Of a DNA stretch of 46,763 nt, positions 1,010 to 46,763 are shown one piece after another. The notes under the pieces are model-generated. The model searched no databases and was not told where the DNA came from. It worked only from the letters and a program-made list of their open reading frames with translations. The first letter of the stretch is position 1, and the number at the start of each line of letters is the position of its first letter. This stretch comes from a virus: positions 1 through 46,763 of IMG/VR virus record IMGVR_UViG_3300042564_006056. One strand, 5' to 3'. The translations under genes and the position numbers were made by a program.

Positions 1010-1369
1010 TTAAAATTGTTTACCGCCAACATCTTTTCTTTCTATATCATCTTCATCTAATTCAGTCCAATAAATTTCATATACTGTTGCAAACTCTATG
1101 TCATTATTTATAAATTGATGATATTCGCCAGGTTTAATCATTATGCTTTCACCTGCATTTAGAAATGTTTTATCTATAAGATCATAATCATTTTTCCAGG
1201 TTTTTACATTTATACAACCACTTTCAATGTAAAACATATTCCACTTGTGTTCATGTTTATGAATAGAACAGTAACCACCTGGCTCTATTAATATACGATG
1301 TATACTAACATTATTCTTTCCGAAAATTTGTTCAGTAAATCCCCAAACCTTTCCTTGTTTATTTCTCAT
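1010..1369 (-). CDS. cupin-domain protein of the sugar cassette
   Basis: A 119-residue single-domain cupin. The first cupin motif is seen around PGGYCSIHKHEHKWNMFY (two His with a third after HEH) and the second around GESIMIKPGEYHQFIN, with the expected G and H. Such small cupins are often sugar isomerases, epimerases or sugar-binding proteins. It overlaps the acyltransferase gene upstream by 11 bases, and its position at the end of a run of glycosyltransferases supports work on a nucleotide-sugar or glycan. The substrate cannot be read from the sequence. Confidence 0.7.
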   Translation of the reverse strand: MRNKQGKVWGFTEQIFGKNNVSIHRILIEPGGYCSIHKHEHKWNMFYIESGCINVKTWKNDYDLIDKTFLNAGESIMIKPGEYHQFINNDIEFATVYEIYWTELDEDDIERKDVGGKQF

Positions 1370-1958
1370 TTTTTAAAATTTTAGCAGGTACACCTACATA
1401 AGTACCAGGTTCTTTAATATCTTTAACTACACCTGCATTTAATCCAATTGTTACATTGCTGCATATTGTTAATTTTTGTCTTAATGATGCATTTGTTCCA
1501 ATATAAACATAATCACTTATATTGCAATTTCCTGATACATTAACACCAGGTGCTGTTGTAAAATAGTTTTCTATAGTACAATCATGTCCTATTGTTGTAT
1601 TAAGATTTAGATGAGCATGATCTCCTATTTTAATATTAGTTGTTAATATACAACCTGCACAAATTATACTGCCTTTACCTATAGTTATATTAGTGTCTAA
1701 GATTTGAGCAGAAGGATGTATAAAAGTAAAATATTTGGTTTCTTTGGGCAATTTGTTTACCATATTAACCCTATCAATAGGATCTCCTATAGCTACAATT
1801 ACTTCATATTCAGCAGGATTAAATTCTGATAGAGGAAATATGTATTCATTGTTTTCTTTCCAAAACTTATCATCAACAAAACATTTTATTGTGTTATCTC
1901 CGATGTGTGCTTTTATTTCTCTGGCAAATCCGCCAGCTCCAATTAATGCTTTTTTCAT
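1359..1958 (-). CDS. PglD/NeuD-type sugar O- or N-acyltransferase
   Basis: The 199-residue protein starts with a small Rossmann-like domain (KKALIGAGGFAREI, glycine-rich loop) followed from about residue 75 by imperfect hexapeptide repeats of the left-handed beta helix (IGKGSII, IGDHAHL, ISDYVYIG, ICSNVTIG), ending in GVPAKIL, the usual end of this family. Family members such as PglD acetylate amino groups of UDP-linked sugars. The next gene upstream is a DegT-type aminotransferase, and the pair aminotransferase plus PglD-type acetyltransferase is the classic route to N-acetylated amino sugars. His residues in the middle of the helix (IGHDCT) fit the catalytic base. Confidence 0.85.
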   Translation of the reverse strand: MKKALIGAGGFAREIKAHIGDNTIKCFVDDKFWKENNEYIFPLSEFNPAEYEVIVAIGDPIDRVNMVNKLPKETKYFTFIHPSAQILDTNITIGKGSIICAGCILTTNIKIGDHAHLNLNTTIGHDCTIENYFTTAPGVNVSGNCNISDYVYIGTNASLRQKLTICSNVTIGLNAGVVKDIKEPGTYVGVPAKILKNEK

Positions 1959-1959
1959 A

Positions 1960-2592
1960 TTATTGATCAGTATAAATTTTAAACTTAGATAAATCTGGAT
2001 AAGGCATTTCTAAATCTTCATTATGTTTAGGCGTGCCATCTGTTTTATAAAACTGTTTCATTAAAAGTAAACCTCTTGCTGCTAATTCTGGCATCATATA
2101 AAAATTCCATCCTAACATATCAAAATAATCATCATGATAAGAGCACTCTCTTCTACCGCTATATCTTGCACGTTTAAACCAAAGATAGGCATCATAATTA
2201 TCAGTTAAGATTGCTCCTCCTTTTGAAAGTTTAAAATGTTTATAAGGGCCTGTAAAACTTATACACATATGTGTACCAGGTTTATACATATTATGAGTAA
2301 ATCTTAGAGCAGAATCCCATACATTAGTTGGCTTAAGTTGGTATGCGCCTTTTATTGTCTTACCTTTAACAATATCAAATTTAACCTTTGCACCCGCATG
2401 TATTATTTCACAAGGAACTGATGGGTAAGTTCTATTAGGTATGGTAATTTCTATTCCTTTTGCCTGTTCGTACATTAATGCTAAAAATAAACCGTTAGAT
2501 TGATTATCAACGGTGATCACGTAAGGAGCTCCAGTGTAATCGCTAAGCTCTTTTTCAAAATCTTCTGTTATTTTATAAACTCCATTTGCCAT
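1960..2592 (-). CDS. short DegT/DnrJ/EryC1-type aminotransferase homologue
   Basis: The 210-residue protein matches the core of PLP-dependent sugar aminotransferases. It has TVDNQSNGLFLAL near residue 28, a likely PLP-binding Asp in VWDSALRF (D93), and a likely Schiff-base lysine in SFTGPYKHFKLSKGGAI (K118) just before the GGA motif. Typical members have about 370 residues, so the C-terminal domain is much reduced. Together with the PglD-type gene two bases downstream it could form an amino-sugar pathway. Because it is so short it could also be a degenerate or partner-dependent enzyme. Confidence 0.7.
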   Translation of the reverse strand: MANGVYKITEDFEKELSDYTGAPYVITVDNQSNGLFLALMYEQAKGIEITIPNRTYPSVPCEIIHAGAKVKFDIVKGKTIKGAYQLKPTNVWDSALRFTHNMYKPGTHMCISFTGPYKHFKLSKGGAILTDNYDAYLWFKRARYSGRRECSYHDDYFDMLGWNFYMMPELAARGLLLMKQFYKTDGTPKHNEDLEMPYPDLSKFKIYTDQ

Positions 2593-2615
2593 GTTTTTGA
2601 TTATTTATTGGTTAA

Positions 2616-3209
2616 TTATTTCCAACCTCCTGCTTTAGGAGATATGTATGTTACAATTCCAGTTTTCCAGTATTTAAGTTTAGCATTTATTAAATCAAGT
2701 GCAAAGAAATAGTCTTCTGCTTGACAAGATTTAAACATAACATTAGATTTTAATAAAGAATCATAGTTTACACTCATTGCTATACCCATTCTTGCTCTCT
2801 GTATGTGTAAACCTGATTTATCTGGTAAAATTCTTTTTTCAGGTGGATGAAAAGGAAATTTTATTGAATGTATAAGTAATTCATAATTATTGTGATTAAT
2901 TACTACATCATTAAAACTGTTTAAAATGTAATCGTCATCATCTAAAAATGATACATATTTAGTTTTTATATTTTCTTTAATGTATAAAAGCCCATGATTT
3001 CTAACTTCACCAGCAGAAGTACATTTTTTATTAGTTTTAATATTAGTTACATTAGGTATACCATAATCAACTATATCGCAATTATCAAAAACCACTACTA
3101 TGTGTGTTTCATTCTTTTTTGCATTTTGGTTAAAAATGCTTTGTATTGCTTTTTTAAGTGTAGGCCTACCTATACTTGGTATGATAAATGTATTAAAAAA
3201 TTGTTTCAT
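2616..3209 (-). CDS. family 2-like glycosyltransferase
   Basis: A 197-residue GT-A fold protein. The N-terminus FIIPSIGRPTLKKAIQS is the usual first strand and nucleotide-binding loop of GT2 enzymes, and the metal-binding acidic motif is FLDDDDY near residue 95. It is shorter than most GT2 enzymes (230-300 residues) but contains the catalytic half and a late acidic motif (QAEDYFF). Its start codon overlaps the stop of the next glycosyltransferase gene. It probably adds a sugar within the cassette; donor and acceptor are unknown. Confidence 0.8.
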   Translation of the reverse strand: MKQFFNTFIIPSIGRPTLKKAIQSIFNQNAKKNETHIVVVFDNCDIVDYGIPNVTNIKTNKKCTSAGEVRNHGLLYIKENIKTKYVSFLDDDDYILNSFNDVVINHNNYELLIHSIKFPFHPPEKRILPDKSGLHIQRARMGIAMSVNYDSLLKSNVMFKSCQAEDYFFALDLINAKLKYWKTGIVTYISPKAGGWK

Positions 3210-3931
3210 TAATGATATAAATTTAAGTTTTGCCTTACATCCTTTCCGTTTTTTAAACCTTTAATAGGAAAACTAACTCCTTTAAAGTGATACACAAAAG
3301 ATCCTAAGCATAATGTTGGTGTTTCTTTTAAACGATTACCTAAATCACTTTCTTGTCCTACATTTACTAGTGCAGGGTTAATTAAATTATCGTTATTAAA
3401 TTCACTTTCTATTATTTTTCTTGAAACTGAAAATAAAAACCCGTTAAATCTTGTAATTTTTATTTCTTTATTTGTAAGTCTTTTTTGTACCTCAGCATAA
3501 TTGTTTGCATCATTTGCATTTATACCTAAATTAGGATAATATTTTTCTACTGATTGTTCTTTCCAATTATGCCCTGCTCCATTTCTTGTACTAAGTGGAC
3601 AAGAAATCTGCGTATTTTTTGTAGAATTTATTAAATTAAGAATTGATTCTTTACATAACAAAATATCATTGTTTGCAATAATTAAAAAATCATACCCTTC
3701 GTTTTTAAATTTTCTATAAGCAATATTCCAACTCCAAGTTAACCCTTTAGGTTGATTTCTTTCTATAATGTTATATCCTGAATTTTTTATAAAATTTTGT
3801 GTACCGTCTTTACTAACATCATCTATAAAAACAATATCCAAATTTGGTATTATTATTTTCTTTAAGCATGATATTAATTTTTTAGTGTATCCTACTTGAT
3901 TATATGTAGTTATTGCCAAAAGTATTTTCAT
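3209..3931 (-). CDS. family 2-like glycosyltransferase
   Basis: A 240-residue GT2-type protein beginning MKILLAITTYNQVGYTKKL, the canonical first strand, with VFIDDVSKDGT for the second nucleotide-binding motif and IIANNDILL in place of DxD near residue 90. NND is a known variant of the metal motif in this superfamily. The C-terminal half has Q-E-S-D (VGQESDLGNRL), reminiscent of the catalytic-base ED region. Start and stop overlap both neighbours, so it is part of a tightly coupled glycosyltransferase run. Confidence 0.8.
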   Translation of the reverse strand: MKILLAITTYNQVGYTKKLISCLKKIIIPNLDIVFIDDVSKDGTQNFIKNSGYNIIERNQPKGLTWSWNIAYRKFKNEGYDFLIIANNDILLCKESILNLINSTKNTQISCPLSTRNGAGHNWKEQSVEKYYPNLGINANDANNYAEVQKRLTNKEIKITRFNGFLFSVSRKIIESEFNNDNLINPALVNVGQESDLGNRLKETPTLCLGSFVYHFKGVSFPIKGLKNGKDVRQNLNLYH

Positions 3932-4674
3932 TACATTCTTTTTAAGAAATCTAAAATGTCAGTATTAGGTTTTCCGTTTTGGAATCTTTCCCAAAATTCT
4001 TCAGTTAATTTAACGCTATTTCTAAGATTACCACCACCTCTTTTTCTCTTATCTTCAAAGTCTTCTCTACTCATTGTTACATAATGATTAAGCTGTATAA
4101 GATTATAAGTATAAGGTTTATTAAAAGGTCCACTTATTTGTTTTTTATTTTCATTAACACAAAATTTATTATTTTTATAATTAAATGCATGAGGATTTCC
4201 CTCAGGTTTTAATACATGTATAGGCCTAACTATTGATTTTATATGTATATCATCATTAGTTTCACTAGCATGAACATATTTTTCTATTATGTTCTTTTGT
4301 TTTTTTAGGTGTCCTGAAGAACCAAAACATTTCCATTGAATACCTAACCCACCATAATTCTCGTATTCTTTTAATAAATCCTTAATGTCTTTATGTTGTT
4401 TTAAGACTATATACTCATCAGTGTCAATAAAACCTAACCATGCCCAATCTTGTGTTCTTTTTAAACAATCGGTATAAGCTCTTATTTGAGAACCATTATT
4501 TGAATCTTGCCATTTTATAACAGTAACATCTTTTGATTTTATATTAATAGCAGGCTCGCTTTCGTTATCGTAAATAAAAAAATGCTGAAACCCTATTTTT
4601 CTATGATAGTTAATGTTTTCTAAAAGATAATCATTTTGATTTTTGGACATTATACATAAAGCTGCATATTTCAT
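3931..4674 (-). CDS. GT92-like glycosyltransferase
   Basis: The 247-residue protein resembles the glycosyltransferase family 92 (formerly DUF23) architecture. It begins with ALCIMSKNQNDYLLENINYH and FFIYDNES, followed by FIDTDEYIVL near residue 105 as the metal-binding DxD, and the late LNHYVTMSREDFEDK block typical of this family. It overlaps the RgpF-like gene upstream by four bases. Family members transfer galactose or similar sugars onto glycans; the acceptor here is not known. Confidence 0.75.
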   Translation of the reverse strand: MKYAALCIMSKNQNDYLLENINYHRKIGFQHFFIYDNESEPAINIKSKDVTVIKWQDSNNGSQIRAYTDCLKRTQDWAWLGFIDTDEYIVLKQHKDIKDLLKEYENYGGLGIQWKCFGSSGHLKKQKNIIEKYVHASETNDDIHIKSIVRPIHVLKPEGNPHAFNYKNNKFCVNENKKQISGPFNKPYTYNLIQLNHYVTMSREDFEDKRKRGGGNLRNSVKLTEEFWERFQNGKPNTDILDFLKRM

Positions 4675-5615
4675 AAGTATCCTATTTTATTATTATTATA
4701 TGTTACTAATATACCAAACATTCTTTCCATTGCATGAGAATACGAAGGTTCTTTAACATTGCCTTTTTCTAAATATTTTATAACCGATCCTATATTAATT
4801 TTTTTAAATATTTCACTAAAGTAATTCCAATCCATCCAAAACATGGTTCCTCCTACAAACGAAGTGTCATTTGGCATAGAAATATTAAAAACCTGTTTGC
4901 ATAAAATATTAATATAATTAACATTTCCTGGATTTACTGCTATTGCTCTAGAATCAGTAATACCTTCTCTGACCTTTGTGCCTGACAATTTTATTTTTTC
5001 ATTTTTTATAAAACCGTTTAATATTAAATTTACATTTTTATCTAAAAAAATACCATCATATAAATCATTTCTCCAATTATTTGCCATATCTCTATTCATA
5101 TGTGTACTTTTTTTATCATGTGCCATGATTAAAAAATCGTATTCTTTTTTTGCATTTAATATATGTTCAATTGCAGTTAATTTTCCTCCTATGTCCTTTC
5201 CTACATTAGGACATTCTAAATATGTAGGCTTAAAATCTAAATATTTTGTAATTTCTTTTGATTGCGAAAATGGGCTTAATTTTGGTGATACTATTATTAA
5301 ATCAAATTTAAACTTTAAATTTTTAAGTCTATAAATAATTTCACTTGTTAAATCACTATAAAAAATATGAAAAACTATACAAATCTTCTTTTTACTAACC
5401 CACTCTAATTGATTGGAAGATGATTCTAATTTTGCAAGATTTACAGTATGTCCAAAATTTATAAACCCATTTTTTTTAGAATTTTGCAGTTCGTATTTTT
5501 CTCTGTATTTTTTAATTCTCTCGTACTCTGCTAAATTTCTATTATTAATTGGTTTAACATTTACTTCTTTTGGTAAGCTAACTCTTAATATGTTACGTTT
5601 TCTTATCATTACCAA
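4671..5615 (-). CDS. RgpF-like (rhamnan synthesis F family) protein
   Basis: The 314-residue protein carries hallmark blocks of the RgpF family: CIVFHIFYSDL near residue 80, CPNVGKDIGGKL, a central MAHDKKSTHMN (compare the HtKks block), TSFVGGTMFWMDW, and near the C-terminus SHAMERMFG. The family is associated with rhamnose-glucose polysaccharide synthesis. Two start codons are possible (MVM). It overlaps its neighbours on both sides. In a phage this could mediate decoration of virion or host surface glycan, but the acceptor cannot be read from sequence. Confidence 0.75.
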   Translation of the reverse strand: MVMIRKRNILRVSLPKEVNVKPINNRNLAEYERIKKYREKYELQNSKKNGFINFGHTVNLAKLESSSNQLEWVSKKKICIVFHIFYSDLTSEIIYRLKNLKFKFDLIIVSPKLSPFSQSKEITKYLDFKPTYLECPNVGKDIGGKLTAIEHILNAKKEYDFLIMAHDKKSTHMNRDMANNWRNDLYDGIFLDKNVNLILNGFIKNEKIKLSGTKVREGITDSRAIAVNPGNVNYINILCKQVFNISMPNDTSFVGGTMFWMDWNYFSEIFKKINIGSVIKYLEKGNVKEPSYSHAMERMFGILVTYNNNKIGYL

Positions 5616-6295
5616 CTTTTTTTACCACCTCCTACATGTTCTATGGAGTAGTTCTTTAATCTTAAATGTTTATAGCCTTTTGTTGTTAAGTATGTTCCAA
5701 AATCTGTATCTAAACCTATAAAATTACGAAAACTTTCATTTTTTATATCTTTAAATACAGAAAAATCCCAAACAGAAAAAAGAAATGGTACAGCATGTGG
5801 ATTTGTTATTTCTCCGTTTTCAATATCTATTTTATAAGTTTTATCTTTAAACCAATGTGGATGTGTAGGATAACAATAATTATTATTCCACTTATACATA
5901 GGTGTAACTGATGCTACTTTATTTTTTCTTTCATTTATTAAAACACTAATCATTTTTTTAAAAACATCTATGTTAGGATTTGCATCGGTTTCCCATATAG
6001 ATATTATTGTAGGATTACTTCTTTTCATTCCTACAAGGTATCCTAAACTTAAAGTATCTTTTAATGATTTTTCTACATTACATTGACTAAATGATATGTT
6101 ATGATCATTTATACTTTTAAGATAAGAAACTGTTTTTTGATCTGAACAATTGTCTATTAATGAAATATGATAAGAGTCAAATAAATCTTTAAAATTATCT
6201 TTTATGAATTTTAATAAATTTTGTACTCCTTCTATGTAATTGTGTATTGGAATTAAGAGGAGTAATCTCTCGTTTTTGAATGTTACTTCTTTCAT
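5609..6295 (-). CDS. family 2-like glycosyltransferase
   Basis: A 228-residue GT2-type enzyme: RLLLLIPIHNYIEGVQNLL for the first strand, SLIDNCSD for the second motif and SIWETDANPN as the DxD-like site near residue 100. The late HVGGGKKSW tail resembles the HxGGxS ending seen in other phage glycosyltransferases. The start is forced, because the first strand begins about eight residues after the ATG, yet this places 101 bases of its 5' end inside the 3' end of the upstream glycosyltransferase in another frame. That overlap is unusual. Confidence 0.8.
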   Translation of the reverse strand: MKEVTFKNERLLLLIPIHNYIEGVQNLLKFIKDNFKDLFDSYHISLIDNCSDQKTVSYLKSINDHNISFSQCNVEKSLKDTLSLGYLVGMKRSNPTIISIWETDANPNIDVFKKMISVLINERKNKVASVTPMYKWNNNYCYPTHPHWFKDKTYKIDIENGEITNPHAVPFLFSVWDFSVFKDIKNESFRNFIGLDTDFGTYLTTKGYKHLRLKNYSIEHVGGGKKSW

Positions 6296-7001
6296 TTACT
6301 TTAGGTATATTATTAGGTTGATTTACTATTGTTGAATTTCTTCTAATGGAAGCATTATTAAGTTCTTTAAGTACATTTTCGTAAAAATCTTTGTCACCTC
6401 CTATTTGATTAATAAACCACTCTTTAGCATTTTGATTATTATAAGGAAAATTTACATTATGTCCACCCCCACCTGTTAAACCTGTTCCGTGTTTTATTCC
6501 TATTGCATAAACCTGATCTTTAGGAAAATCTACCGTAATTACTTGTGAATGTTTAGATATGTGCATATCCAAAAATGCATAATTATCAGCCGGCCACGTT
6601 ATTCTCCAAGGTAATTTTACTAGTGTGCAAAATGCGGAAGTTCTTCCACTATGTTTCATATGATGAGATTTCCCTGCAACTAAGTGATAATAGTAAGTTT
6701 CACCTACACCAAAAAAGTTTGGCTTTCCTTTTCCTTGCCATTGTTTAATTAACCATTCTAAATATTGTGGATGATACCAATCATCATCTTCCCAAAATAC
6801 AACAAATTCGTATCCTTTTTTTGTTGCTTCTTCTACGCCTGCTCTATATCTTTGTGTAATATCTCTTTGATTTGAAAGAGGGCTATAATTAACCCAAATT
6901 ACTTCACTAGGTTGAACTGATTGCCTTCTTAAGAACTTTTTACATTGTTCTACAAATTTAGGTCTATCATTTCTTGTTGGTATTACTATTGCAAAGTTCA
7001 T
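6195..7001 (-). CDS. family 2-like glycosyltransferase, first gene of the sugar cassette
   Basis: A longer frame begins at 7022, but its extra seven residues (MPFLFLY) lie inside a terminator hairpin, so I take the ATG at 7001, which gives MNFAIVIPTRNDRPKFVE, the canonical GT2 start. The metal site is FWEDDDWYHP near residue 75, and GTGLTGGGGHNV probably shapes the acceptor pocket. The last ~35 residues (rich in N, R, K and S) overlap the next gene and look like out-of-frame extension rather than domain. This is the promoter-proximal gene of a run reaching about 1 kb. Confidence 0.8.
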   Translation of the reverse strand: MNFAIVIPTRNDRPKFVEQCKKFLRRQSVQPSEVIWVNYSPLSNQRDITQRYRAGVEEATKKGYEFVVFWEDDDWYHPQYLEWLIKQWQGKGKPNFFGVGETYYYHLVAGKSHHMKHSGRTSAFCTLVKLPWRITWPADNYAFLDMHISKHSQVITVDFPKDQVYAIGIKHGTGLTGGGGHNVNFPYNNQNAKEWFINQIGGDKDFYENVLKELNNASIRRNSTIVNQPNNIPKVNERSNIQKREITPLNSNTQLHRRSTKFIKIHKR

Positions 7002-7011
7002 ATATAAAAAT

Positions 7012-7038
7012 AAAAAGGGCAAGCCTATTGGCCGCCCT
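7012..7038 (-). terminator. rho-independent terminator after the 65-aa gene
   Basis: On the minus strand AAGGGC and GCCCTT pair around a GC-rich interior and are followed by a T-rich tract (TTTTTATTTTT). It lies after the stop of the 65-residue gene and directly before the sugar cassette, so the cassette depends on read-through or on a promoter hidden in or near the hairpin. Confidence 0.7.
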
Positions 7039-11696: not shown

Positions 11697-11978
11697 CTAT
11701 TTTTGTTTAAAATTTTGTTTAGGTTTTCCTTTTACTATTTCTCCTTTAGGAGCTCTATGATAAACTTGTGTAGACCATGGATCATCACTTGGACATACAC
11801 ATTCATCAGTGTTTTCTCCACATCTAGCACAACTTTCCTCCTCGTTTGTAATAAAATCTTGAGCTTCTTTTTCAAGATCCGGATCTGATCCATCAGAAAT
11901 TTCTTGTTTTTCTATGTGATCAACTGGCTTATGCCTTTGCTCCTCAAATAAAAAATCTTTAAACTTTTTAATATACAT
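11697..11978 (-). CDS. small Cys-motif protein with a capsid-tag-like N-terminus
   Basis: The 93-residue protein begins MYIKKFKDFLFEEQ, a weaker version of the tag found on five other proteins in this window (M-K-x-I-x-x-F-x-x-F-L-x-E), with a potential cleavage site L-F-E. The body has CARCGENTDECVC, a possible metal site, and an acidic linker before a basic C-terminus. If the tag is functional, the mature protein would be an internal head protein. No enzymatic motif is visible. A perfect 14-base motif lies 12 bases upstream of the start. Confidence 0.55.
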   Translation of the reverse strand: MYIKKFKDFLFEEQRHKPVDHIEKQEISDGSDPDLEKEAQDFITNEEESCARCGENTDECVCPSDDPWSTQVYHRAPKGEIVKGKPKQNFKQK

Positions 11979-14454: not shown

Positions 14455-15408
14455 TTAATCTTTTACACTAAATCTTTTATTATCTCTTTTTAGAGTAAGG
14501 CCTATCATTTGCTTTGCATACTCTTCAAGTTTTGTCTTAGACTTTTCACTTAAAGGTTTCTTGTAAAAATCTTCATAGATTTTTTCGTATAGTGCTACGG
14601 TGCTATCAAAAGGTACACCAGGTTGTGCATTGGACTCAATGATATAGATCTTTCCACTCTTATCTCTCATTAAGTCAAAACATATGTATGGAAAATCTGA
14701 AAACTTTTCACAAAATTTAGAAAGAACCTTTTTAATATCATTTGGTATGTTTTCAATATTTCTTCTTGCATAACCAAAATGCATTTCTTCATCGGTATCA
14801 CCGTCTCCCGTTTTTGCCTTATCGTTAAGAGGTGTTCTTTCCATCCAAAAGAAAGGCTTTCCTCTAAAGTTAAAAAATCGGTGTTCTTCTGCTTTATCTA
14901 TAAATTCAGAAAATGTATCAAATTTACCGTTTAAATCTTTTAGGTCTTCTTTTGTTTTTACAACTTGTATTCCAATTCCTGAATGTCCTGATGCAGGTTT
15001 TGCTATAATAGGAAACTTTAGTGTTTTTTCTGCATCATTCACAGTGTAAACTGTTTTAGGAATGTTTTCATCTTCACCTATAAGTTTATGAAATTCTTCT
15101 TTAGAGCCAGATTTTGTAATAATTTCAGGAAGATTATAAATGTTTTCCTTTTTAATTTTACCTTTCTTTAAAAGTTCATTTGTTATGTCACTATGATAAT
15201 TTAAAACAGGATAGTCTGGATTAATGTCTAATTTATCCATGTTATTTTCAGTAACTTGTGTAAAAAACTTATTACCGGCAAAACCTTTATATGTTAGCCA
15301 TCTTTGGCCACTACTTCTCTTTGTAGCTAAATAAATTTTATGTAAACAATTTTCATCATCTCCTAATGCTTCATTAATAAACTGTTCAAAAAGTTTTATG
15401 TATTTCAT
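14455..15408 (-). CDS. ATP-grasp ligase with capsid-targeting-like N-terminus
   Basis: A 317-residue ATP-grasp enzyme. The ATP-binding region includes FPIIAKPASGHSGIGIQVV (around residues 130-150), and the metal-binding end includes YICFDLMRDKSGKIYIIESN, with the E-x-N pair followed by AQPG. The family joins a carboxylate to an amine using ATP; the acceptor is not evident. The first 15 residues, MKYIKLFEQFINEAL, are nearly the same as on unrelated proteins here and resemble the T4 capsid-targeting sequence with a cleavage site after I-N-E. If so, the enzyme is packed in the head and injected. It overlaps the 68-aa gene by four bases (ATGA). Confidence 0.8.
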   Translation of the reverse strand: MKYIKLFEQFINEALGDDENCLHKIYLATKRSSGQRWLTYKGFAGNKFFTQVTENNMDKLDINPDYPVLNYHSDITNELLKKGKIKKENIYNLPEIITKSGSKEEFHKLIGEDENIPKTVYTVNDAEKTLKFPIIAKPASGHSGIGIQVVKTKEDLKDLNGKFDTFSEFIDKAEEHRFFNFRGKPFFWMERTPLNDKAKTGDGDTDEEMHFGYARRNIENIPNDIKKVLSKFCEKFSDFPYICFDLMRDKSGKIYIIESNAQPGVPFDSTVALYEKIYEDFYKKPLSEKSKTKLEEYAKQMIGLTLKRDNKRFSVKD

Positions 15409-21533: not shown

Positions 21534-21866
21534 TTATTGATTTGTCCAAAGTGTTAAAAACTTCTTATCTGCATTAGGGTGTGTATACTCAGATCCTTTC
21601 TTTAATTGATCTGCATTCATTCCACCACCTTTCCATACTCCATGATTATTACGAACCATATTTGTAGTGGTAGGTTGAGCATCCGTATGATTACTTGTAC
21701 CTACTACAGCTATATCTACTGTTCTGCCTCTATCATTAACTATTACTCCGTAAAGTGCAGGAGTTCTTTCAACTGTTTTTGGATTTGACCAACGGACAAG
21801 ATCACCTTCTTTAAATGTTCCAACTGCTTCGTTTAAAAAACTTTCAAATGTGTGTATGTGTTTCAT
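21534..21866 (-). CDS. tagged small protein, SH3-like barrel candidate
   Basis: The 110-residue protein begins MKHIHTFESFLNEAV, matching the T4 capsid-targeting layout with L-N-E/A as the cleavage point. The remaining 97 residues look like a small beta barrel (GDLVRWSNPKT, ALYGVIVNDRGRTVDIAVVG) with an aromatic C-terminus. It could be a nucleic-acid or peptide binding internal protein, but this is inference. It is the last gene of an operon closed by a terminator, and the third of three tagged genes in a row. Confidence 0.65.
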   Translation of the reverse strand: MKHIHTFESFLNEAVGTFKEGDLVRWSNPKTVERTPALYGVIVNDRGRTVDIAVVGTSNHTDAQPTTTNMVRNNHGVWKGGGMNADQLKKGSEYTHPNADKKFLTLWTNQ

Positions 21867-21882
21867 CGTGTATTTTTATTTA

Positions 21883-22293
21883 TCAATTTACTGGTACTGT
21901 TAAAACATAACATTTATATTCTGCGTCAGAATCTTTGTTTAAAAGAATTGCCGGTACTCCATTGAATCTTCCAATTTGATAAGAGTCCCAAAACTCGATT
22001 TCAACGCCACCATCACCCTTTTTCATTAGCGGGCCTGGCATATCCCAAAAACCCTTTGGTTGATTGTCGGATGCCCAAGATAGATTCATATCAAGAATTG
22101 AATTTACTTTTACAAAACGATTGTAGCGATTGATGCTTTTGACTGCTGAATCCAATGCGGATTCTTCTTTTTTAAGTTCGTTGCCTTTCATTAATGATTT
22201 TAATGTATTAGCAGCTGGCTCAGCTGGGAGATAAAGACCTTCGTCATATCTCTTTTCGTTTACAAAGCTTTCAAATGTTTTAAGGTGTTTCAT
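21883..22293 (-). CDS. tagged hypothetical protein, 136 aa
   Basis: The N-terminus is MKHLKTFESFVNEKRY; the cleavage-site position has V-N-E followed by K, a weaker fit to (L/I)-x-E than its neighbours. The body is mixed alpha and beta with a hydrophobic core strand (VPAILLNKDSDAEYKCYVLTVP) at the C-terminus. No catalytic motif. It lies between two other tagged genes, 17 bases from each, so it looks like one of a tandem family sharing the tag but not the cargo. Confidence 0.65.
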   Translation of the reverse strand: MKHLKTFESFVNEKRYDEGLYLPAEPAANTLKSLMKGNELKKEESALDSAVKSINRYNRFVKVNSILDMNLSWASDNQPKGFWDMPGPLMKKGDGGVEIEFWDSYQIGRFNGVPAILLNKDSDAEYKCYVLTVPVN

Positions 22294-22310
22294 TTATCTA
22301 ATTTTTTTTG

Positions 22311-22619
22311 TTACCCTTCTGTGACATCGAATTTAGTTCTCCCAGTAAGGAACGTCATTATTTCAGCGTATGAAGTAGACTCTGGCCGTTCAGGCTTTCC
22401 TGAACTATTAATTTCCTTTTTCTTAAAGTCTACTGTGATAGTGAAACTTTTTGAAGATGGCTCAATTACAACAGTATTGCCTTCCACCTTTGCTGATAGC
22501 GATTTAGGCTTAAGGAAAGAAGCAAAGTGTGCTTGATTCTTGCTCAAAAAATCTGCTATGCTTTGAGGCGTTTCATTTGCCTCATTCAAGAAGCTTTCAA
22601 ATGTTTGTATGTGTTTCAT
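22311..22619 (-). CDS. tagged hypothetical protein, 102 aa
   Basis: It begins MKHIQTFESFLNEANET, an ideal tag with L-N-E/A. The body (residues 15-102) has SIADFLSKNQAHFASFLKPK, then strands NTVVIEPSSKSFTITVDF, suggesting a small beta-alpha domain. It follows the exonuclease gene by 12 bases and shares an operon with it. The first 40 coding bases are visibly similar to those of the other tagged genes, so the tag is also a DNA repeat. Function unknown. Confidence 0.65.
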   Translation of the reverse strand: MKHIQTFESFLNEANETPQSIADFLSKNQAHFASFLKPKSLSAKVEGNTVVIEPSSKSFTITVDFKKKEINSSGKPERPESTSYAEIMTFLTGRTKFDVTEG

Positions 22620-41537: not shown

Positions 41538-42014
41538 TTTGCGAGTATATGTTAAAAATTCAGTTTGTTCTCTTTTTAACAGCTTTTTACAATGCTTATT
41601 AAATTTAACCGATGATTCTATAATTCTGGTGTCTATAAATTTATTTGTTGAATTATGAGACTCTTTGCAATTTTTACAAACAAAATTTTCAACCTTTTTA
41701 GAATCCATTCTTGATTTAATATCAGTGTTACATATTGCACAAGACCAATCTAAAATATTTGAATCTAAAGTTAACTCCTTTAGAGTTGTAAAAGTTTCTT
41801 TAAATGGATTCCAAAGTGGTTTATTAATCACCTTTTCATATTCATTCATATCTATAATCTTAAAAATGATTTCATAAGTTTGTGGATCTGGGTTTAACCA
41901 TTTTAAGTAATCATTTTCTAAAAGAAATTTTTGCTTAGAGGGCGGCAGGTTCTCTAAGAGTATACCATGCCGCCTTCTATACCATCCAAAGTTTATCTTT
42001 CTAACTTTATACAT
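41523..42014 (-). CDS. zinc-ribbon protein, 163 aa
   Basis: The 163-residue protein has a Cys4 zinc site (CAIC near residue 92 and CKNC near 113) following a basic N-terminus (MYKVRKINFGWYRRRHG). The C-terminal part is strongly basic and hydrophilic (HCKKLLKREQTEFLTYTRKSSKR). Two zinc knuckles and a basic tail suggest nucleic-acid binding. It converges with and overlaps the plus-strand gene by 15 bases. It starts at the last base of the long coiled-coil gene's stop. Confidence 0.65.
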   Translation of the reverse strand: MYKVRKINFGWYRRRHGILLENLPPSKQKFLLENDYLKWLNPDPQTYEIIFKIIDMNEYEKVINKPLWNPFKETFTTLKELTLDSNILDWSCAICNTDIKSRMDSKKVENFVCKNCKESHNSTNKFIDTRIIESSVKFNKHCKKLLKREQTEFLTYTRKSSKR

Positions 42015-43441
42015 TAAACCCTTTTATTAAGAAGCCTGCTGAATTTTTGTGAAATAGATTCATTAAGAGATCCGTCACTTTTTCTGTACCAAGGTTTACT
42101 TAAAGATTCGATTTCTTCCATGATTAAATCTATACTTCTACTTATAGAAGAAAGTTTTATATTATAATCAATAGAAGATTCACCTAATCCTAAAAGTTCC
42201 TTTTTCTTCTTTTCTATTTGAGTCTTTATAGCATCAATTACAGTTTGTTTTGGGTTAGGACTTGATACTGCTGCAGCTAATGCTTTTTCTGCTTTTGCAA
42301 GCTTATCAGTTATTTTATTTTTTAAATCTTCAGTGTTTTTAGATCCTCCTTCTTTAGGACTAGGTTCTGTAGTAGGTTCGCCTTTCTTAGGGGTTTTATC
42401 ATCCTTTTTTAATGCAACCAAATCTTTAACTTCTTTAAATGAATTAATTGCATCTTCAGCATCTTTTTCGAATGCAGAAACCATTTCTTCTGCATTATTA
42501 TCGGTTGCCATACCTGCCTTTTTAAGTAATCCTACACTTAATTTTGATTTTACTTCGTTCATTTCCTTTCTTGCTTGTAATACTGCGTCAATCTCTTCCT
42601 CAGTAGAATCTTCTGTATATGCACCTGCAAGATCCATAAATTTTCCTAATTTTTCCTGGAAATCACGTATTTTATCTAAAGCTTCTTTTGTTTCAGCTGG
42701 AGCATTTTGTACTCTGTTTTTCATTTCTTGCTCTGCTTCTTTTGCCTCTTGTCTTAAAGTTTCTATTTCCTTTTGAGCATCTTGTTTTAATTTTTGATCA
42801 CGCTCTTTTGCTTTTTGCATCAATGCTTTTTGTTTATTAGTATCTGTTGTTGCATCTATTTTTACTTGTAAAATATCATTATTTAACTCAATTGCATATT
42901 TTAAATCAATCTCTGCCTTAAATTCATTCCAACGCTTTTTTAAGCTATCTACTTCAATAGGATAATCGGTATCAAATTCAGATATTCTATCTGTAATTTT
43001 TTGTTTGTCTGCTGCAATTCTTTCTCCTATGTTAGTTTTTTCAGTTTCTATTTTATCTTTTAATGTTTCTTTTGCTTGTTCTAAAGCATCAGCTTGTTGA
43101 TCTTTTAATTGCTGTCTTTTTACCTTTTTTTGTTCAGTTGGTATTTGTTCTTGATTAACCTTTTCTATTTCAGCTTTAATCTTTTCTTTAATTTTATCTT
43201 CCAATTGGGTTAAATACTCTTCTTCATTTTCGTCAATTTCTGTTTTTTGATCTATTTCGTCTAAAGATAAAGCATTTTGTGCTTTCATAAATTTAGGATA
43301 TGCACTTTTTCTTTTATAATAATTTATTTGAGATTTTGCATACTTCATAAATATTCCGTAATCCTTTTCTCCACTTGTTGCTTCATCAATTTGTTGTGAT
43401 TCTAACACCTTTACAAATTGGTCAAAAGATATAAATTTCAT
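42014..43441 (-). CDS. long coiled-coil protein with tag-like N-terminus, candidate head-core protein
   Basis: The 475-residue protein begins MKFISFDQFVKVLESQQ and then IDE-A, similar to the tagged proteins (F-x-x-F and I-x-E/A). The middle (60-330) is a long charged coiled coil rich in K, E and Q, and the last 30 residues (DGSLNESISQKFSRLLNKRV) hold another L-N-E/S site. Long coiled-coil proteins next to the capsid gene may be scaffold or internal proteins. It is transcribed after the capsid gene's terminator. Specific homology to T4 gp22 is not evident. Confidence 0.6.
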   Translation of the reverse strand: MKFISFDQFVKVLESQQIDEATSGEKDYGIFMKYAKSQINYYKRKSAYPKFMKAQNALSLDEIDQKTEIDENEEEYLTQLEDKIKEKIKAEIEKVNQEQIPTEQKKVKRQQLKDQQADALEQAKETLKDKIETEKTNIGERIAADKQKITDRISEFDTDYPIEVDSLKKRWNEFKAEIDLKYAIELNNDILQVKIDATTDTNKQKALMQKAKERDQKLKQDAQKEIETLRQEAKEAEQEMKNRVQNAPAETKEALDKIRDFQEKLGKFMDLAGAYTEDSTEEEIDAVLQARKEMNEVKSKLSVGLLKKAGMATDNNAEEMVSAFEKDAEDAINSFKEVKDLVALKKDDKTPKKGEPTTEPSPKEGGSKNTEDLKNKITDKLAKAEKALAAAVSSPNPKQTVIDAIKTQIEKKKKELLGLGESSIDYNIKLSSISRSIDLIMEEIESLSKPWYRKSDGSLNESISQKFSRLLNKRV

Positions 43442-43543: not shown

Positions 43544-45289
43544 TTAGATAATGTCAACACCAGTAAGAGAGAAGTTTAATGTGTAATACATTGTTTGAGG
43601 GTGGAAACCTGCGTCTACAAGAGCAAATCTTGATTTAACCGCGATCTTAGGAGCCATAGTTCCTTCAGCAATTGTTTCAACAGATTCAGCCATCAAATAA
43701 GGCATAAATACTAAACCAGGAGAGTTACCGTCACCTTTACGTCCGATAGCGATTGTGTAATCGTTAAATGCACGGTTAGGATCTACATAAACAGTAACAC
43801 CTGCAATAGCACCGATTGGATAAAGAGATCCACCAGCTTGGTTTACAGTATTAGAAAGTGGATAAGGAACGAATCCAGCACAATCTTGTAGTGCAGAAGC
43901 CATAGCTCCACCAGTTACAGCGAATGTAGCAGGTCCTCTACGACCACGAGTAGCGATCAAGTTAGAAGAAGCAAGAATCTTAGTAAGGATTCTTCTTTGA
44001 AGAGTACCTTGAGTTTCTCCACCACCATCAACTTTAACTGAAAGAACAGTTACAGATCTAGTAACACCTGTGTTATCTTGTCCTAAGGTAATAGGAGTAG
44101 ATATACCACCTGAAAGGTCAAATGCAGCAGAAAGAACAGTTCCATCAACTTGTGAAACTTGGAATGCATTAGATACACCGTTTTTGAAAATACGATCTAA
44201 GATGTATTTGTTAATTGATTGAGTTAATTCATTAACCAATACAGCTTCTACTTGAGCAACAGCATCAATACCGAATTGCTTAAGGTCTTGTACTTGTTCA
44301 CGAGTAACAGCAGCAGCAACTTGGTAAGTATCAGCAGCAACTGATTTGTTGAATAAGCTTAAACCGATGATATTATCAACAGTAGCTTCACCAACACCTC
44401 TTAAGTAAGGTTCAACACCAGTGATTGTTGGGAAAGAACCAGCAGTACCATTAGGATTGTTAGCAGCAAAAGCATCGCCAGAGAAACCTGGGATATGATC
44501 TTCTAAAGCTTTAACCAATTCAGGAGTACTGTCAAAAGTACCGATTTGAGTAGCAACAGTAACATTACTATAAATATTAGTACCGTTAGCAATTGCATCG
44601 TAAATAGGAATACCAGCGCCTTCACTGCCTTGAGCAAAAATAGCGTTACCGGCAGTAGCACCTGCAGTATTACCTCTTACACGGAAAATACTTAAACCGT
44701 CAATTCTTGAACGACCAACAAAGGTAAGTTCATAAGTTGCACGGTCACCAGTAGAAGCACCGCCTAATGCATTAGTATCATCAGTGTATCTAACATCTCC
44801 TGCAACAAGAGCAGCTTCGCCAGTATTAAGAGTAATAGCAACTTTAACCATAAGAGGTCCAGCAGTAGTGTCCAATCCACCAGCAGATCTATCGCGACCA
44901 CCACCGTAAACAAAGTCCAAGTAAGTAAGAACTCCCATAGGACCTTGCATAGGAACAACAGGAACAAGATCAAGACCTACTGTTTGAGCAGCAACTTGCA
45001 TAGCAAGAGGAAGTAAAGAGAAAGGTCTATCACCACTACCTGTTTGTTGAGAAAAGAATTGATTCATAGTACCAGGAGCATCTGGGAAAGAAGGAGCTCC
45101 CATACTTTGAACATTCATGTTAGGATTTAGATGTACAGTGTTATAAACACTTTCATTAAGGTTATGATAGTGGCAGTATTTAGACATCCAAGACAATTTT
45201 GACTTTTCAGTAATACCAGTAGCTTCCTCAATGATAGGTGCCCATGTTCTTTGTACTTCAGCTTCATTAATTAATTGATTAGCGTACAT
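43544..45289 (-). CDS. 23: major capsid protein, T4 gp23-like
   Basis: A 581-residue capsid protein (T4 gp23: 521). C-terminal blocks GLVFMPYLMAESVETIAEGTM and APKIAVKSRFALVDAGF closely match gp23. The N-terminal region (MYANQLINEAEVQRT, WAPIIEEATG, YHNLNESVYN) has LINE-A and LNE-S sites of prohead-protease type; the S47 site is a likely maturation cut, as gp23 is cut after residue 65. It is preceded by a long leader and followed by a strong terminator. Confidence 0.95.
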   Translation of the reverse strand: MYANQLINEAEVQRTWAPIIEEATGITEKSKLSWMSKYCHYHNLNESVYNTVHLNPNMNVQSMGAPSFPDAPGTMNQFFSQQTGSGDRPFSLLPLAMQVAAQTVGLDLVPVVPMQGPMGVLTYLDFVYGGGRDRSAGGLDTTAGPLMVKVAITLNTGEAALVAGDVRYTDDTNALGGASTGDRATYELTFVGRSRIDGLSIFRVRGNTAGATAGNAIFAQGSEGAGIPIYDAIANGTNIYSNVTVATQIGTFDSTPELVKALEDHIPGFSGDAFAANNPNGTAGSFPTITGVEPYLRGVGEATVDNIIGLSLFNKSVAADTYQVAAAVTREQVQDLKQFGIDAVAQVEAVLVNELTQSINKYILDRIFKNGVSNAFQVSQVDGTVLSAAFDLSGGISTPITLGQDNTGVTRSVTVLSVKVDGGGETQGTLQRRILTKILASSNLIATRGRRGPATFAVTGGAMASALQDCAGFVPYPLSNTVNQAGGSLYPIGAIAGVTVYVDPNRAFNDYTIAIGRKGDGNSPGLVFMPYLMAESVETIAEGTMAPKIAVKSRFALVDAGFHPQTMYYTLNFSLTGVDII

Positions 45290-45485: not shown

Positions 45486-46040
45486 TTATTTTTTAACATA
45501 AGCATATAATTCGCCATCAGATCTAAATACTACTACATTTCTGCCTTTGTACTTTCCTGCATAAGCCTCATCGTAAATGTTAGAATTAACAGAAATAGGC
45601 TCCATTTTTTCAATTTCATCAAATAGGTCTTCACCGTCAGGTTCAGTTGTGTCTGTTAAAATTATGGCATCATTTCCTTTAGTTGCACCAATTTCAGCAA
45701 GAGCATCTTTGCACCCTCTTAGTTCTCTTGAAGTTTTTTCGCCAGCTGTTTCAACAGCATCGATAAATGTAAAATCTTCAGATTCTACAGTTTCAAAAAT
45801 TACTAATTTTCCTTCAGGTTTATTTTCTACTCTTGTCTTAGGGTATTTACTTTTTACTGCAGCAAGAATCTCTTCAACATCATCCATTGCACTAACATAT
45901 CCTGATTTATCATCTTTATTCCAATTAATAACACCAAAAAGTTCAGGAACACTTGATTTAGCAATCAATTTCTTAACCTCATTACGAACAGGTGAAGCAT
46001 TTTCATTAATAAATTGTTCAAATAGTTTAATATGTTTCAT
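45486..46040 (-). CDS. tagged protein, 184 aa, next to the capsid gene
   Basis: It begins MKHIKLFEQFINENA, almost identical to the ATP-grasp tag, with cleavage expected after I-N-E. The body (residues 15-184) has VRNEVKKLIAKSSVPELFG, DVEEILAAVKSKYPKTRV, GKLVIFETVESEDFTFIDA, AIILTDTTEPDGEDLFDEI and ends in a strand GELYAYVKK. No catalytic residues are evident. Its place between scaffold-like and capsid genes suggests a head component, perhaps an internal protein. Confidence 0.7.
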   Translation of the reverse strand: MKHIKLFEQFINENASPVRNEVKKLIAKSSVPELFGVINWNKDDKSGYVSAMDDVEEILAAVKSKYPKTRVENKPEGKLVIFETVESEDFTFIDAVETAGEKTSRELRGCKDALAEIGATKGNDAIILTDTTEPDGEDLFDEIEKMEPISVNSNIYDEAYAGKYKGRNVVVFRSDGELYAYVKK

Positions 46041-46074: not shown

Positions 46075-46763
46075 TTATCTTCCTAAATTAAATTTAACTT
46101 TATTAATAATAGCAGCTTTACGATCATCAGAAATTTGAGATTCTTTAATCATTTCGACCTGTGCCTGTTCAGCAGCAGACTTACTTTCAGTAATAGCCTC
46201 TAATGTAACTTGAGAATTTCTAAGATCTCTTGTTTGCCAAAAATTATTAATTGCATAAGGTGTGTTTAGTGTATAAAACTTAGATTCTGCAATGATTTGT
46301 GATTTTCTATTACCTGTTAATTGTTCCCATTTCATACGGAATTTTTCAGGCATATCATTAATAAAATCAAGAGCCGCTTTAGATTCAGTTAGACAAGAGT
46401 TCCATACATTTTCAGCTTGTATAGTACTCATAATAGGACCACGATTCATACTTTCAACAAGAAGATTTTGCTTTTCGTTTGAAAGATTTTTAAACTCTTG
46501 GCGTTTGCCTTCAGTTAAAAAATTCATAAAATGGTATTCTTTAGAAACATTAGGTTTAGCACTTTCAATAATCTTGTTAAGCTTTTCAGTTAATGACTCT
46601 TTATATTCATTAATTTGTACAGACTCATTAAGATCGCTTTCACTTGTATTACCAATACTTTCTGCAATATATTCAGAATACTTAATACCTCTTTCAAGGT
46701 TTTCAGCAAGATAGTTAGAGTAAGAAATACCTTTATCTAAACTTTCTGCAAGATAATTTGAAT
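46075..46763 (-). CDS. scaffold-like head-core protein with repeats, 5' end outside window
   Basis: The frame is open from its stop at 46075 to the window edge, giving at least 229 residues; an internal Met (MNFLTEG) is not a start. The visible N-terminal part has three 14-residue repeats: SNYLAESLDKGISY, SNYLAENLERGIKY, SEYIAESIGN. The protein holds about a dozen L/I-x-E sites (YLAE, LTE, LVE, IAE, ITE, IKE), mostly followed by S, N or G. T4 gp22 is degraded at such sites by gp21. Location upstream of capsid matches a gp22-like prohead core protein. Confidence 0.65.
   Translation of the reverse strand, partial: SNYLAESLDKGISYSNYLAENLERGIKYSEYIAESIGNTSESDLNESVQINEYKESLTEKLNKIIESAKPNVSKEYHFMNFLTEGKRQEFKNLSNEKQNLLVESMNRGPIMSTIQAENVWNSCLTESKAALDFINDMPEKFRMKWEQLTGNRKSQIIAESKFYTLNTPYAINNFWQTRDLRNSQVTLEAITESKSAAEQAQVEMIKESQISDDRKAAIINKVKFNLGR

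Follow-up and report, generated by a model that had tools for sequence, protein, structure and literature searches.

A short N-terminal tag with features of a capsid-targeting and prohead-protease sequence on unrelated proteins of T4-like phages

Five genes of a 46,763-base viral contig (the window, by which we mean this whole stretch of DNA) open with the same tag, MK[HY][IL]xxFE[SQ]F[ILV]NE, ahead of unrelated bodies, where none would be expected by chance. Very probably, this tag serves as a capsid-targeting and prohead-protease sequence. The earlier note had proposed capsid targeting with a gp21-type cut after the tag, a reading that fits an S77 ORF, a capsid cut site and scaffold repeats, and also the tagged core genes found by the protease, the joints of polyproteins and the gene labels of phage PAU.

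In T4, the internal proteins IPI, IPII and IPIII carry a capsid targeting sequence (CTS; Mullaney & Black 1996; Repoila et al. 1994; reviewed in PMC3012670), and foreign proteins are carried into T4 heads by it (PMC3012670). The internal proteins of T-even phages form a highly diverse set in which the conserved CTS alone is common (PMC3012670, citing Repoila 1994). IPI blocks GmrSD, and IPIII is required for infecting ECOR17 (PMC3012670, PMC9391042). The start MKTYQEFIAE(A), which the earlier note had given for T4 internal proteins in general, is that of ipII and ipIII but not of ipI, which reads MKTFKEFTSTTTPVSTITEA.

Tagged genes in the window

The window carries capsid, terminase, sheath and tube genes and is probably a fragment. 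The closest relatives of its capsid protein were in hundreds of uncultured contigs (588 by tblastn), and it was more distantly related to those of Lak, PAU, Tenacibaculum and Chryseobacterium phages. At 1010-7022 there is a run of about nine genes that look by eye like sugar-modifying enzymes and glycosyltransferases, most of them without a relative in the related records G002 and G003.

A pattern search of the window DNA returned five matches at zero mismatches, whereas 100 dinucleotide shuffles of the window gave no match to the tag pattern even with two mismatches allowed. The pattern read backwards had no match in any of the searched records. The five strong tags on unrelated bodies thus stand as first described (Table 1). 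Weaker copies had been suspected on two further genes: that of 11697-11978 is credible, as its G002 relative begins MKHIQTFETFF and G003 has a fully tagged gene at that place, whereas that of 42014-43441, for which no ortholog was found in G002 or G003, is suggestive only. The proteins of the tandem trio had no confident family in Pfam or PHROGs, and single-sequence AlphaFold models of two of them were too poor (pLDDT 51 for 21883..22293 and 43 for 21534..21866).

Table 1. Tagged genes and head genes of the window. Arrows mark predicted cuts.
Feature	Position	Strand	Length	Details
Tagged cargo gene 1 of tandem trio	22311..22619	-	102 aa	start MKHIQTFESFLNEA; tag 22581-22619; predicted cut after E13
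Tagged cargo gene 2 of trio	21883..22293	-	136 aa	start MKHLKTFESFVNEK; tag 22255-22293
Tagged cargo gene 3 of trio	21534..21866	-	110 aa	start MKHIHTFESFLNEA; tag 21828-21866
Tagged ATP-grasp enzyme	14455..15408	-	317 aa	start MKYIKLFEQFINEA; tag 15370-15408
Tagged cargo gene	45486..46040	-	184 aa	start MKHIKLFEQFINEN; tag 46002-46040
Gene with degenerate tag	11697..11978	-		start MYIKKFKDFLFEEQ; degenerate tag MYIKKFKDFLFE↓E
Gene with weak, uncertain tag-like start	42014..43441	-		start MKFISFDQFVKVLESQQIDEA, judged from sequence alone
Major capsid protein, T4 gp23 family	43544..45289	-		PF07068, 4.4e-30; sequence-predicted maturation cuts HNLNE46↓S47 and LINE9↓A10
S77 prohead protease-scaffold fusion	46075..46763	-	229 aa (C-terminal)	ORF cut by the contig end

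The tagged ATP-grasp gene lies at the same place in G002 and G003, with its tag kept and 70% identity. At the place of the trio, both have instead a tRNA array and a tmRNA (L211:6572-9950 in G002 and L218:8998-12560 in G003; 22 tRNA genes each plus the tmRNA, by ARAGORN), each tRNA set serving about all amino acids, whereas no tRNA was found in the window. In G003, the 11697 locus is occupied by a GPYFLQ cargo with a complete tag, and what by eye seems to be its G002 relative lies at another place (103932). Between the protease-scaffold and capsid genes, where G002 and G003 have no gene, the window has the 45486 cargo.

Spread, diversity and shape of the tag

A scan of viral contigs gave at least 248 distinct tagged proteins of at least 60 aa. 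After their first 16 residues had been stripped, BLAST placed them in 147 cargo clusters, an upper estimate for the 248-protein set, since BLAST may have separated distant homologs. Bacterial and archaeal genome sequence (257 Gb) had 6 matches to the pattern, none of them a tagged gene of at least 60 aa. Tagged genes tend to stand together: among the matches listed, 129 of 248 have another tagged gene on their own strand no more than 100 bp away, and one stretch (L130) contains 13. In the 234-kb record G019, unsupervised clustering of N-termini grouped 23 genes, and the control on residues 41-52 grouped 0. The tagged genes thus show the feature of the T4-type CTS system in which one short N-terminal sequence is common to unrelated bodies, and the modularity of the cargo proposed at the outset is borne out by the 147 clusters and by a difference in cargo between relatives at one locus.

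A profile built from one sequence per cargo cluster (147 clusters, among the matches listed) had the consensus MK-H-[IVL]-K-[LT]-F-E-x-F-[VIL]-N-E, then A or S, with 4.3 bits of information at Glu13, 1.4 at residue 14 and less than 0.8 beyond. The A1 consensus was MKHIKLFExFxNE, after which there was no conserved stretch. The search pattern had fixed residue 11 as I/L/V/M and residue 13 as E but left residue 14 free; at this position (P1'), Ala or Ser was present in 78 of the 147 clusters among the matches listed (53%, compared with a background of 12.8%; p~1e-31). The tag therefore ends in a site of the gp21 type, [LIV]xE with a small residue mostly next.

Protease, capsid cut site and scaffold repeats

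Of the 24 tagged contigs with a length of 87 kb or more, 18 had S77 (PF03420), as had 8 of 8 over 150 kb (among the matches listed), compared with 2 of 13 control contigs chosen by an unrelated pattern. The difference was significant over all contigs (Fisher p=0.001) but not at matched length (18/24 vs 2/6 at ≥87 kb, p=0.14), the control set being small and a second one having been set aside for its too few large contigs. The enrichment of the tag in genomes with a gp21-type protease, which the earlier note had expected, was thus seen overall and lost its significance on length-matching, and the association taken alone is modest evidence.

The two head proteins of a T4-type system, an S77 protease and a gp23-type capsid protein, are both found. 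The closest relatives (L002-L004) have a full-length S77 ORF of ~575 aa directly upstream of the capsid gene. The window ORF, whose catalytic part lies beyond the contig end, is 62% identical to the S77 ORF of G002 from residue 431 onward, and its C-terminus holds the repeats YSNYLAES, YSEYIAES and FMNFLTEG; a reading of 46075-46527 as a small core gene was rejected, as this region forms the C-terminal end of the protease-scaffold fusion. A second, short S77-like ORF of 132 aa was noticed away from the head genes in four records (G019:57359-57613, G020:36115-36369, G022:156418-156672 and G032:80335-80589; L250, L253).

The capsid protein has a site of the same kind as the tag. HNLNE↓S, at residues 42-47, is invariant in close relatives, and distant capsid proteins keep [LI]xE↓[SAN] there in a different sequence context (PTm1 INE↓S, MA9V-2 LNE↓S, pT24 ILE↓S, PAU LME↓N, LR756500 LYE↓N); the T4 site is FLTE↓A. 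These sites support the view that the same protease would cut the capsid protein at a tag-type site, for the window phage as predicted from its sequence. In PAU, N-terminal sequencing gave a mature capsid protein of 520 of 585 residues (PMC5646251 Table 1). The predicted PAU cut, LME64↓N65, leaves 521 residues, one off the reported 520, and the sequencing thereby supports the protease step.

Towards its C-terminus, the S77 ORF carries tandem repeats such as YSDYLAEN, YANYLGEN and YSEYIAEN. This C-terminal scaffold part has 6-11 [YF][LIVM]xE sites, against ~1 after shuffling, and for nearly all close-relative S77 ORFs only 0-1 of 500 shuffles reached the site count; the enrichment was weaker in the distant L231 and L239, and there was none in the truncated ORF L029. 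The core of the tag, [FY]xx[FY][LIVM]xE, has the spacing of the scaffold repeat, as does YQEFIAE of T4 ipII and ipIII. In seven records (G002, G003, G004, G031, G018, G019 and G023), this motif is found at the starts of genes and, in 5-8 copies, within the S77 ORF; elsewhere it occurs only sporadically. We hypothesize that mimicry of the scaffold brings the tag into the prohead core.

A rival reading takes the tagged proteins themselves for parts of the prohead core (scaffold), destroyed or expelled at maturation and never delivered. At eleven S77 loci of the other phages (some near-duplicates), a tagged or degenerately tagged gene of ~115 aa lies just upstream of the protease, about the position of T4 gp67 and gp68, which are placed between portal and protease; the annotated scaffolding protein of PAU is itself tagged, and many of the cargos are small proteins without a known function. 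We nevertheless regard this reading as unlikely, because the cargos fall into 147 diverse clusters that include ATP-grasp, Acb1-like 2H, cREC and nucleotidyltransferase enzymes, because an internal [ILV]NE beyond residue 16 is present in just 38 of 248 bodies among the matches listed, and because, unlike core genes, cargos differ between close relatives at one locus.

Dialects of the tag in other phages

The strict FLNE pattern had no match in PAU, PTm1, MA9V-2, pT24 or Lak-A1. Unsupervised clustering of N-termini found MKT[LI]xxLYE[AS] on 19 PAU genes, several of them around the protease, and MK[TN]FxxF[IV]NE[SA] on 5 genes of Chryseobacterium phage MA9V-2; a control on residues 41-52 gave no false clusters in either phage. 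The same clustering found no such tag in PTm1 or in the searched 400 kb of Lak-A1, although both are S77-positive, indicating that the tag system is not universal. Five tandem genes of Lak-A1 (311040-313486, locus L422) do have a common N-terminus, MK[VI]xxRxxVFETNSSS[TV]H, which does not look like a cleavage tag.

Sphingomonas (Sphingobacterium) phage PAU, a distant capsid relative, thus has a tag of its own, MKT[LI]xxLYE↓[AS], with the dialect LYE where the phages studied here have FLNE. Its GenBank record (NC_019521) makes no mention of a tag but applies the label 'internal capsid protein' to five genes (gp70, gp142, gp154, gp199 and gp270), and four of the five bear the PAU tag (p~6e-5). 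The record is silent on the basis of these labels, though its other notes naming capsid features suggest that they come from structural work. The fifth gene, gp70 (46515-47051 of that record), is the sole one without the PAU tag.

Short N-terminal tags can direct proteins to cell sites in general, and the present tag might in the same way lead to the inner membrane, a replication compartment or the tail. We consider such a destination highly improbable, since [FY]xx[FY][LIVM]xE recurs in the prohead scaffold and seldom in other places, the capsid protein has the same cut site, and it is 'internal capsid protein' genes that bear the tag in PAU.

Polyprotein cargos and conservation at the protein level

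At 22 places, a directly tagged cargo recurs as the inner domain of another tagged protein. The boundary coincides exactly with [ILVMF]xE in 10 of these, against a background of 2% (p~5e-12), and [ILVM]xE lies within -9..+3 of it in 17, against 18% for a 12-residue window, the 22 junctions being not all independent. The joint of L144 reads ESNVNE↓AKKLDRD where the tagged form reads FVNE↓AKTLDRD, and the same correspondence is seen in L151 (ESVLNE↓MDSEAA, tagged FINE↓MDSDAA) and L204 (ESVLNE↓TTFNNF, tagged FLNE↓SSMDNF). The simplest reading is that the prohead protease would split such chains into individual cargos.

The earlier note had also pointed to conservation of the tag in the DNA. Among the genes at 22311, 21883, 21534 and 14455, pairwise identity is indeed 27-33 of 39 bases in the tag and falls to 3-17 of 39 in the next 39 bases. 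Within the tag, however, the codons for Phe, Asn, Glu, His and Ile vary synonymously (TTT/TTC, AAT/AAC, GAA/GAG), which indicates that selection acts on the tag peptide and that the 39-bp likeness is a by-product of conservation at the protein level. Upstream of the tag, the DNA has an A-rich leader and the start codon without further conservation. The least probable of the explanations considered makes the tag a recombination or mobility module of ~40 bp at the DNA level, with no N-terminal protein function: the stretch does precede unrelated bodies, and the same cargo is found at different loci in relatives, but residues stay fixed while their codons vary, conservation stops at the Glu and reaches upstream only as far as the A-rich stretch and start codon, polyprotein joints retain [LIVM]xE alone without the 40 bp, and PAU and MA9V-2 keep the layout with different residues. 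Recombination at the DNA level was rejected as the cause of tag conservation on the synonymous variation; short DNA matches in the tag could serve recombination, which in T4 works at matches of 6-10 bp (PMC9391042).

Comparison with known systems

The T4 internal proteins resemble the tagged cargos in their short common N-terminus, their unrelated small bodies and the [FY]xxF[LIV]xE↓A end, and T4 and the tagged phages are alike in having an S77 (gp21-type) protease and a capsid protein of the gp23 family. Compared with the T4 CTS, the tag is three residues longer and has Asn at P2 in most copies. The tagged phages also differ from T4 in their 147 cargo clusters (among the matches listed) and up to ~23 tagged genes per genome, in polyproteins with internal cut sites, in enzyme cargos and in the fusion of the protease to a repeat scaffold. 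Searches of the T4 internal proteins against the 248 tagged proteins with phmmer and blastp gave no significant match. Homology of bodies to IPI, IPII or IPIII is not a required feature, the T-even internal proteins being themselves diverse (PMC3012670). The two cores, YxxFIxE↓A in T4 and FxxF[LIV]NE↓A here, are too short to tell descent from convergence on protease or scaffold.

In phages of the SPN3US/phiKZ type, a prohead protease likewise trims the N-termini of head and ejected proteins, with Glu at P1 and Ser favoured at P1' (PMC10052503). SPN3US gp245, by contrast, cuts after AXE, and the propeptides are mostly of 111-254 residues, with two of 20 and 24 (PMC10052503); we found in that paper no description of one short tag common to unrelated cargos. 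The system had been put forward as undescribed for this phage group. Its concept is known from the T-even phages, but our searches of the open-licence literature for this group brought up neither the tag and its dialects nor the polyproteins or scaffold mimicry, and relative to the T-even system the dialects, the polyproteins, the mimicry and the scale appear new.

Proposed delivery and functions of the cargo

With capsid targeting and cleavage as the preferred reading, the following sequence of events can be proposed. Tagged proteins would co-assemble with the scaffold in the prohead core, the tag core being a copy of the phage's own scaffold repeat. The activated protease, to judge from the matching sites, would then cut after the Glu of [LIV]xE in the scaffold, the capsid protein and the tags; freed cargo would remain in the head while the tag and scaffold peptides exit, and, as in T4, would enter the host with the DNA (PMC3012670, PMC9391042). 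Any body could follow the tag, making the cargo modular, and where a gene joins two or three cargo domains, cuts at the internal [LIVM]xE joints would yield separate proteins. We lean slightly towards the broader view that this amounts to a plug-in delivery system widespread among Bacteroidota-type T4-like and jumbo phages, in which a scaffold-mimicking tag and protease-split polyproteins would bring in a pre-emptive repertoire of more than 100 types for counter-defence and takeover before gene expression.

If this is true, a single N-terminal signature lists, from sequence, hundreds of virion-delivered proteins from uncultured phages, most of them without a known family. The T4 internal proteins that were shown to matter act against host defence, making the tagged proteins candidates for counter-defence. 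Mimicry of the scaffold repeat would suggest, in specific terms, how capsid targeting sequences act, and from the polyprotein joints a cut site can be predicted for every cargo; the joints and the mimicry alike can be tested in cultured phages, among them PAU and MA9V-2.

The likely roles of the cargo are takeover in the first minutes and counter-defence. The majority of tagged proteins had no family match. The protein encoded at 14455..15408 matched the ATP-grasp families PF07478 (2.4e-7) and PF14398 (1.6e-6), both over the cut-off, and its cluster is the largest among the matches listed. A tagged protein of L198 (5451-5993) matched the Acb1 anti-CBASS family over the cut-off (E 1.9e-7) and has two HxT motifs by eye; a PDB search with this Acb1-like cargo gave no match. 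Another, of L150 (6591-7043), matched cREC (E 3.9e-21). The Acb1 and cREC cargos would point to counter-defence against nucleotide signalling. Further family matches were to Lcl_C (L094) and to a cytidylyltransferase-like family (L204). Tagged cytidylyltransferase-like proteins recur (L101:7917-8522, L158:6396-6992, L162:7470-8042 and L204:1347-2153, the last matching CTP_transf_like), an odd enzyme for virion delivery. Finally, an untagged gene that adjoins a tagged cluster in G002 (C1:106132-106539, start MKTLLWLDDIRDP) resembles the cREC cargo of L150 by eye, and the two may possibly form a tagged and untagged pair.
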